From contig NZ_JBBMXV010000003.1 in NCBI RefSeq assembly GCF_037996645.1, positions 310,001-374,000 on the forward strand: 64,000 nt of DNA, given 5' to 3'. The translations under genes were made by a program, and so were the position numbers. The DNA is from Halalkalicoccus tibetensis. Its GTDB lineage: Archaea > Halobacteriota > Halobacteria > Halobacteriales > Halalkalicoccaceae. The notes below the pieces were generated by a model that did not search any database, had not been told where the DNA came from, and worked only from the letters and a program-made list of their open reading frames with translations. Below are positions 3,312 through 51,521 of this stretch, in pieces (the first letter of the stretch is position 1; each line of letters begins with the position of its first letter).

Positions 3312-3393
3312 GCCGGGATGGCCGAATGGTAAAGCGCACGCCTGGAAAGCGTGTTCCCTTTTGGGATTCTGGGTTCAAATCCCAGTCCCGGCG
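3312..3393 (+). tRNA. tRNA-Ser (anticodon GGA)
   Basis: 82 bases fold as a class II tRNA. Acceptor arms GCCGGGA (3312-3318) and TCCCGGC (3386-3392) pair, followed by discriminator G. The anticodon arm CACGC-CTGGAAA-GCGTG reads GGA (serine UCC/UCU). A long variable arm TCCC-TTTT-GGGA and the T arm CTGGGTTCAAATCCCAG follow. CCA is not encoded. A TTTAAA box about 30 bases upstream fits a promoter. Confidence 0.95.
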
Positions 3394-3519
3394 TCCGTCT
3401 GTGGCGAGCATCGTGAGGAGCGAAGCGACGAACCGCGAGCCACGAAGTCGACACGGATACGGGATTTGAGCAGCGAACGAGCTGAGCGAAGTGAGTGAGT
3501 TCAAATCCCAGTCCCGGCG
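3394..3519 (+). repeat. tRNA-Ser 3'-tail: purine-rich spacer ending in a copy of the tRNA 3' end
   Basis: Bases 3499-3519 repeat exactly the last 21 bases of the tRNA (3373-3393, GTTCAAATCCCAGTCCCGGCG): half of the T arm, the acceptor strand and the discriminator. The 105 bases between are rich in GAGCGAAG-type repeats, contain an inverted pair GTGGC...GCCAC, and include CGTGAGGAGCGAA at 3412-3424. This is the layout of attL/attR left by integration at a tRNA 3' end, but with almost nothing between. No reading frame is present. The tRNA-His gene (51.4 kb) has the same arrangement. Confidence 0.8.
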
Positions 3520-44147: not shown

Positions 44148-44220
44148 TGGGACCGCCCGGATTTGAACCGGGGTCAACGGCACCCAAGGCCGCAAGGATA
44201 CCAAGCTACCCCACGGTCCC
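44148..44220 (-). tRNA. tRNA-Pro (anticodon TGG)
   Basis: 73 bases on the minus strand. Acceptor GGGACCG pairs with CGGTCCC, discriminator A. Anticodon arm GCGGC-CTTGGGT-GCCGT reads TGG (proline CCA). T arm CCCGGTTCAAATCCGGG. No encoded CCA and no intron. Unlike tRNA-Ser and tRNA-His in this window, no copy of its 3' end lies downstream. Confidence 0.95.
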
Positions 44221-51332: not shown

Positions 51333-51447
51333 AGGTCCAGATGCGAGAATTGAACCTCGGTCGTTTCGCTCGCTCCGCTCGCTTCACTCCCTGCTTCGAT
51401 TCTCTTCGTTTGACTTTTCGCTCCTCACGTCCGTTCGTCCCGAAAAG
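51333..51447 (-). repeat. tRNA-His 3'-tail: purine-rich spacer ending in a copy of the tRNA 3' end
   Basis: Read on the minus strand, the tRNA-His gene is followed by about 90 bases rich in GAGCGAGCG and then by 51333-51357, which repeats 51445-51469 (the tRNA 3' end plus three trailer bases) with one difference in 25. CGTGAGGAGCGAA (51417-51429 reversed) starts 19 bases after the tRNA, precisely as in the tRNA-Ser tail. No gene in this stretch. Confidence 0.8.
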
Positions 51448-51521
51448 GTCCAGGTGCGAGAATTGAACCCGCGTCTCAGCCTCCACAAGGCTGAAGGATA
51501 GTCCACTACCCCAACCCGGAC
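51448..51521 (-). tRNA. tRNA-His (anticodon GTG)
   Basis: 74 bases including the extra G at -1 that pairs with C73, the identity mark of tRNA-His. Acceptor GTCCGGGT with ACCTGGAC; anticodon arm CAGCC-TTGTGGA-GGCTG reads GTG; T arm ...GGGTTCAATTCTCGC. The AT-rich CGTATTTTATCC (51543-51554 reversed) lies about 27 bases upstream and may also serve the divergent gene. Confidence 0.94.

Follow-up and report, generated by a model that had tools for sequence, protein, structure and literature searches.

Hairpin-forming repeat units fitted to tRNA 3' ends in Halalkalicoccus tibetensis and other Halobacteriales

Two tRNA tails in the window

In the stretch of DNA analysed here (the window; 64,000 nucleotides of the Halalkalicoccus tibetensis genome), the genes for tRNA-Ser(GGA) and tRNA-His(GTG) are each followed directly by a short unit that ends in a copy of the 3' end of that tRNA. 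The gene for tRNA-Pro(TGG) has no such unit in the window and is filled in one congener (G002). Both units contain two hairpins, the second of which is built from an inverted copy (IC) and a direct copy (DC) of parts of the host tRNA, as listed below.

3312..3393, + strand: tRNA-Ser(GGA), host of unit 1 (ARAGORN, Rfam)
3394..3519, + strand: unit 1 of 126 nt, whose last part copies the tRNA-Ser 3' end (sequence comparison)
3400..3444, + strand: hairpin 1 of unit 1, with a GTGGC/GCCAC stem, a GA/GA internal loop and GC/GC (sequence)
3412..3424, + strand: 13-mer CGTGAGGAGCGAA, in hairpin 1, behind tRNA-Ser(GGA)
3461..3469, + strand: 5' arm of hairpin 2 of unit 1, GGGATTTGA, the IC of the T-loop/T-stem
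3470..3495, + strand: core of hairpin 2 of unit 1 (covariance model R1, E=1.2e-8)
3496..3519, + strand: 3' arm of hairpin 2 of unit 1, TGAGTTCAAATCCCAGTCCCGGCG, the DC of the tRNA-Ser 3' end
44148..44220, - strand: tRNA-Pro(TGG), without a unit
51447..51520, - strand: tRNA-His(GTG), host of unit 2 (ARAGORN, Rfam)
51334..51446, - strand: unit 2 of 113 nt, whose last part copies the tRNA-His 3' end (sequence comparison)
51415..51446, - strand: hairpin 1 of unit 2, TTTTCG...GA-AC-GGAC-GT-GA...CGAAAA, containing the 13-mer
51417..51429, - strand: 13-mer CGTGAGGAGCGAA, second copy in the window, behind tRNA-His(GTG)
51395..51404, - strand: IC of the T-loop/T-stem of tRNA-His, GAGAATCGAA, in unit 2
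51357..51394, - strand: core of hairpin 2 of unit 2, GCAGGGAGTGAAGCGAGCGGAGCGAGCGAAACGACCGA (model R1, E=3.3e-13)
51334..51356, - strand: DC of the tRNA-His 3' end, GGTTCAATTCTCGCATCTGGACC, in unit 2

The preliminary description of this DNA had drawn attention to the 13-mer, and we found both copies on the strands where it had placed them, each with the tail's own tRNA-end copy further on. It gave the offset as exactly 19 bases in both tails. Counted from base 73 for both tRNA ends, the offset is indeed 19 nt in the Ser tail but 18 nt in the His tail. It also proposed a genome-wide search against tRNA coordinates, and held that abundance of the 13-mer independently of tRNAs would speak for general low-complexity sequence. 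In the entire genome (3.6 Mb, 15 contigs), exact CGTGAGGAGCGAA was found only three times, and a reversed control pattern once. The third copy starts 16 nt past the end of tRNA-Lys(TTT); all three copies thus lie 16-19 nt behind a tRNA, a placement far beyond chance, and the proposed refutation fails because every copy is linked to a tRNA gene. When up to two mismatches were allowed, the count in the window was at chance level; therefore, the evidence lies in the position of the 13-mer and not in its abundance. With three copies in the genome, all within a variable hairpin, CGTGAGGAGCGAA was dropped as a marker of the family: it is only a piece of hairpin 1, and the family-defining part is hairpin 2. 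Low-complexity noise as an explanation of the tails was ruled out by the position, by the covariation and by the shuffled controls given below.

Architecture of the units and fit to the host tRNA

The units are about 65-160 nt long, non-coding and hairpin-forming, and are located directly behind tRNA genes. In the units that we call type A, the order is hairpin 1, IC, core and DC, and the tails always lie on the sense strand of the tRNA. The IC of these units carries the host T-loop and part of the T-stem in inverted orientation, the DC is the host tRNA segment from the T-loop to base 73 in direct orientation, and the two together form the stem of hairpin 2, the core of which is typically CAGGGAG...CGACCG. 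In type B units (for example, those of Arg and Ala-CGC), the IC copies the 3' strand of the acceptor stem instead, and GA-rich hairpins are borne on the antisense strand. Tandem arrays occur behind tRNAs for Lys, Val, Met and Arg, with three units in the case of Lys-TTT.

Hairpin 1 differs between units. Units that are alike over their whole length belong mainly to tRNAs whose 3' ends are the same (Val-CAC/Val-GAC and Lys-CTT/Lys-TTT), and the Val-CAC and Val-GAC units, compared between species, are 90% identical over 122 nt. Cores and hairpin 1 are also common to tRNAs with other 3' ends: a 35-nt stretch of hairpin 1 of unit 1, CGAGCA-CGTGAGGAGCGAAGCGACGAACCGCGAG, recurs with 97% identity in the tRNA-Lys(TTT) tail. 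The core of the Leu-CAG units is unrelated in sequence to the others. Separately, the tail of tRNA-Phe (L019) is a plain 142-bp tandem duplication of tRNA end and trailer without a hairpin 2 core. Because of this plain duplication and the unrelated Leu-CAG core, one common ancestor element cannot cover all cases. In the tail of tRNA-Ser(TGA) (L035, contig G000:C1), hairpin 1 contains an N and then 19 C in a row, which probably arose as an artefact when the hairpin was assembled.

The IC is fitted to its own host. At the position facing T-loop base 57, the IC matches the host in 87 of 94 units (mean of shuffled assignments 53, maximum 69), and the agreement with the own tRNA at T-stem positions 63-65 is 1.53 of 3 (shuffled 0.96, maximum 1.18). 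In the eight units in which the T-loop of the tRNA and that of the DC mismatch, the IC tracks neither of the two consistently.

The core shows internal covariation. In the motif GCGAxCGNAGyGAGC, the combinations at x/y are AT 48, GC 33, CG 6, GT 3, TG 1 and AC 2, from which we conclude that x and y pair. Hairpins of the form X-GA-NN-loop-NN-GA-X' are common within the units, and their loops were counted in the units alone, as a genome-scale scan for GA/GA was dominated by coding sequence. Three-base loops are GNA in 58/83 of these hairpins, as against 74/184 where the flanks are unpaired. Four-base loops are GNYA in 19/42, as against 0/127 with unpaired flanks; another 13/42 are GNAB, and just 2/42 are GNRA. 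Loops of the GNA and GNNA types, closed by G-C pairs, are those of DNA mini-hairpins of very high stability (PMC4686876), and GNNA and GNAB are two of the DNA tetraloop motifs that Nakano 2002 names in its title (via PMC5090098). By this analogy, the loop types hint at selection on single-stranded DNA. The z-score of folding was -3.3 with RNA parameters on the sense strand versus -1.9 with DNA parameters; thus, the folding energy gives no preference for single-stranded DNA. The sense strand folded better than the antisense strand in 47 of 57 type A units.

Distribution and turnover

A copy of the tRNA's own 3' end was found within 450 nt downstream of 22 of the 43 tRNAs of the H. tibetensis genome (28 copies). 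Across four congeneric genomes, this one being the first, the corresponding numbers are 22/43, 15/42, 18/42 and 6/44 tRNAs, and no own-end copy was found within 450 nt upstream in any of the four. As a control, ends of tRNAs for other amino acids were searched for in the tails, and were present in 2-4.6% of tests (4.5% in this genome).

A covariance model, R1, was built on hairpin 2. At E<=1e-3, it gave 21 matches in this genome, 20 of which lie behind tRNAs. The remaining one (L068, G000:C2:146162-146207) is an isolated core with non-tRNA arms. At G000:C2:3904-4044 (L070-L073), weaker tandem GGGAG...CGACCGWGGTTC cores are found in an intergenic region without a tRNA; the core is thus present away from tRNAs as well, in low number. 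R1 matched 33 of 40 relatives. In a sample of the phylum, 27 of 30 genomes of the order Halobacteriales were positive, at many tRNA types, and no match was obtained in the sampled genomes outside the order. An exact-pattern scan of named genomes gave at least 120 stretches, and all listed records are from haloarchaea, among them Haloferax, Halorubrum, Natrinema, Natronococcus and Halobellus. Among the 81 matches listed, 75 are preceded on their own strand by a tRNA, mostly 39-85 nt away, and the DC of the listed matches is mostly identical to the upstream tRNA at 18-21 of 20-21 positions. The other six comprise two at locus ends, two with inserts of 2-3 kb, and two others. The inserts (L299 and L267, from Haloferax marinum and Haloterrigena salina) lie between the tRNA and hairpin 2 and contain integrase-like fragments; in L299 the entire unit is duplicated and flanks the insert on both ends.

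There is strong support for a family that spans the order and is found at about half of all tRNA genes in H. tibetensis. The preliminary description had read the succession of tRNA end, spacer and tRNA end as a short repeat family; this reading is strongly supported as well, and the family is far larger than it appeared from the window.

We compared nearly every tRNA region of three congeners with that of H. tibetensis. Orthologous tRNAs are filled in some congeners and empty in others, which may reflect gain or loss. At Leu-CAG, Leu-CAA, Ile-GAT, Glu-TTC and Ser-TGA, the junctions of filled and empty sites are exact to 0-2 nt, and the difference between the two states is the unit plus one end copy. 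Unit 1 is missing or degenerate at the orthologous tRNA-Ser(GGA) of the three congeners, the decayed copy in G001 being without the DC; unit 2 has an orthologous unit in G002 and is degenerate in G004. The Leu-CAA tail is kept across species of Halorubrum, exceeds its flank in conservation and shows a compensatory change in its core stem, all of which suggests selection on the structure. In tRNA-Leu(CAA) tails (L038, L165 and, in Halorubrum, for example L243), a second hairpin, GATGCGGAAGACGCTCTCGGAGCGCTCTTCCCTCGCA, is near-identical between Halalkalicoccus and Halorubrum, which is unusual for intergenic DNA.

Possible origin of the units and relation to known systems

Of the explanations considered, the best is that these are hairpin repeat units, spread over the order, that are gained and lost at tRNA ends as non-autonomous units; we give it a probability of roughly 0.4. 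The precise filled and empty sites between species are consistent with such a unit. The preliminary description had suggested a short nonautonomous mobile unit: the precise sites and the lack of any gene in the unit agree with this, while mobility is what we infer from the pattern of presence and absence. Gain would take place at the tRNA 3' end by a generic event in which about 20 terminal nt of the gene, from the T-loop to base 73, are duplicated, and this duplication would leave the tRNA intact. A loss may occur by recombination between both copies of about 20 nt. The IC, being complementary to the near-universal T-loop sequence, might serve to recognise tRNA genes of any kind through base pairing, probably at a time when one of the DNA strands is single. 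As the unit encodes no enzyme, it would be non-autonomous, and the remaining candidate drivers are a tyrosine recombinase of the host or of an element, or template switching during replication. A more specific form of the proposal, in which the IC pairs with the universal T-loop on single-stranded DNA and guides insertion behind base 73, duplicating the segment from the T-arm to the end, with arrays growing in the manner of CRISPR at the leader, seems to us improbable.

As to enzymes, tyrosine recombinases were found in all nine unit-rich genomes tested. A Y1 (HUH) transposase (PF01797) was found neither in this genome nor in 4/9 of the unit-rich genomes, and Cas1 (PF01867) was likewise absent from this genome and from 6/9 of the unit-rich genomes (this one included). 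Mobilisation by IS200/IS605 or RAYT and by Cas1/casposase were thus both rejected for this genome. A tyrosine integrase gene lies at G000:C1:586369-587574, about 700 nt behind tRNA-Glu(TTC), where a weak end copy is found at +934; this has the appearance of an ordinary tRNA-integrated element.

The main rival of the gain-and-loss reading is that the tail is a functional, structured RNA trailer cotranscribed with the tRNA, acting as a second, t-element-like tRNase Z site, as protection from misfolding or as a small RNA. The constant sense-strand orientation of type A tails, the RNA-parameter z-score with the stronger folding of the sense strand, the compensatory changes and the conserved Leu-CAA tail of Halorubrum all argue for a trailer, and the t-elements of Haloferax, which are tRNA-like and serve as substrates of RNase P and tRNase Z (PMC4326828), provide a precedent. 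However, presence and absence change fast among congeners, some genomes have no unit at all, decayed copies exist, the GA hairpins of type B tails are antisense, and the loops differ from the usual stable RNA tetraloops; we consider a trailer function less likely than the gain-and-loss reading. Slippage or template switching at hairpins behind tRNAs could also generate the tails as a self-templated by-product, neither element nor function. Such a process would explain the simple duplication in the Phe tail, the variation of cores between tRNAs, and the peak of whole-unit sharing at tRNAs with the same 3' end, but being blind to sequence it would not yield the same core of about 40 nt across families of one order and its absence from the sampled genomes outside, and we regard it as improbable.

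It is slightly less probable still that the tails are remnants of attachment sites, left by an element with a tyrosine integrase or by a miniature using such an integrase, the end copy being attR. The 3' ends of tRNAs are classic attachment sites; the integrase-like fragments in L267 and L299, the integrases of the nine unit-rich genomes and the integrase gene adjoining tRNA-Glu fit with this origin, and so does the flanking direct repeat of the tRNA 3' end. No integrase gene lies inside the units, though, and at 65-160 nt there is too little room for one. Moreover, since integrases need a matching attP, one core behind dozens of different tRNAs would not be expected, and the IC and the structure are left unexplained. 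The unit sequence had no match in the IMG/VR viral contigs, phages and plasmids searched, a search run with few haloarchaeal plasmids and with the BLAST low-complexity filter, which may mask sequence of this kind.

The nearest known architecture is that of the 178-bp repeats of E. coli tyrT and their rtT RNA, which stand in tandem behind a tRNA gene and each contain the tRNA 3' end. Our units, too, each hold the 3' end of the host tRNA, but the tyrT array is one enterobacterial locus with no known IC of the T-loop, and an Rfam scan of the Ser unit gave no RtT match at E<=1. Casposons and Cas1 integrate at tRNA ends and duplicate the tRNA 3' end as target; the units have no casposon genes.

Partial tRNA copies are known to arise from integrated elements (PMC9897764). 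Prophages and ICEs integrated at tRNAs have the same direct 3' end repeat behind an intact tRNA, but span kilobases with an integrase, whereas the units are geneless and share a hairpin core at many tRNAs. The PATEs, SMRs and MITEs of Haloquadratum are likewise short, non-coding, palindromic and haloarchaeal (PMC3119063), but are not linked to tRNAs; PATEs relate to IS605 and make no target duplication (PMC3119063), whereas every unit ends in a tRNA 3' end copy. The terminal inverted repeats expected of MITEs are also missing: the tRNA end recurs in direct orientation at the ends of the unit, and the IC is internal. REP/BIME sequences with RAYT resemble the units as small intergenic hairpin repeats occurring in tandem, but are dispersed between genes and linked to Y1. 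The t-element of Haloferax, a tRNA-like element in a haloarchaeal transcript (PMC4326828), is one lone tRNase Z site upstream of 5S rRNA, whereas the tails are only candidate tRNase Z substrates. No Rfam family matches the units, and no description of a tRNA-end repeat family was found in the open-access literature, in line with the remark in the preliminary description that such a unit was not known to be described.

In H. tibetensis, our findings indicate an unannotated, structured repeat, fitted to the individual tRNA, at about half of the tRNA genes, and most sampled Halobacteriales have it at many of theirs. At least part of the 'GAGCGAAGCGAGCG filler' in haloarchaeal intergenic DNA consists of paired GA/GA hairpins with covarying stems, which excludes its reading as noise. 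If the units are mobile, they would represent a small tRNA-targeting element that brings along a copy of the tRNA end and so spares the tRNA. If they are functional, tRNA maturation would have an unrecognised layer in this group, which includes the genetically tractable Haloferax, where the units occur.
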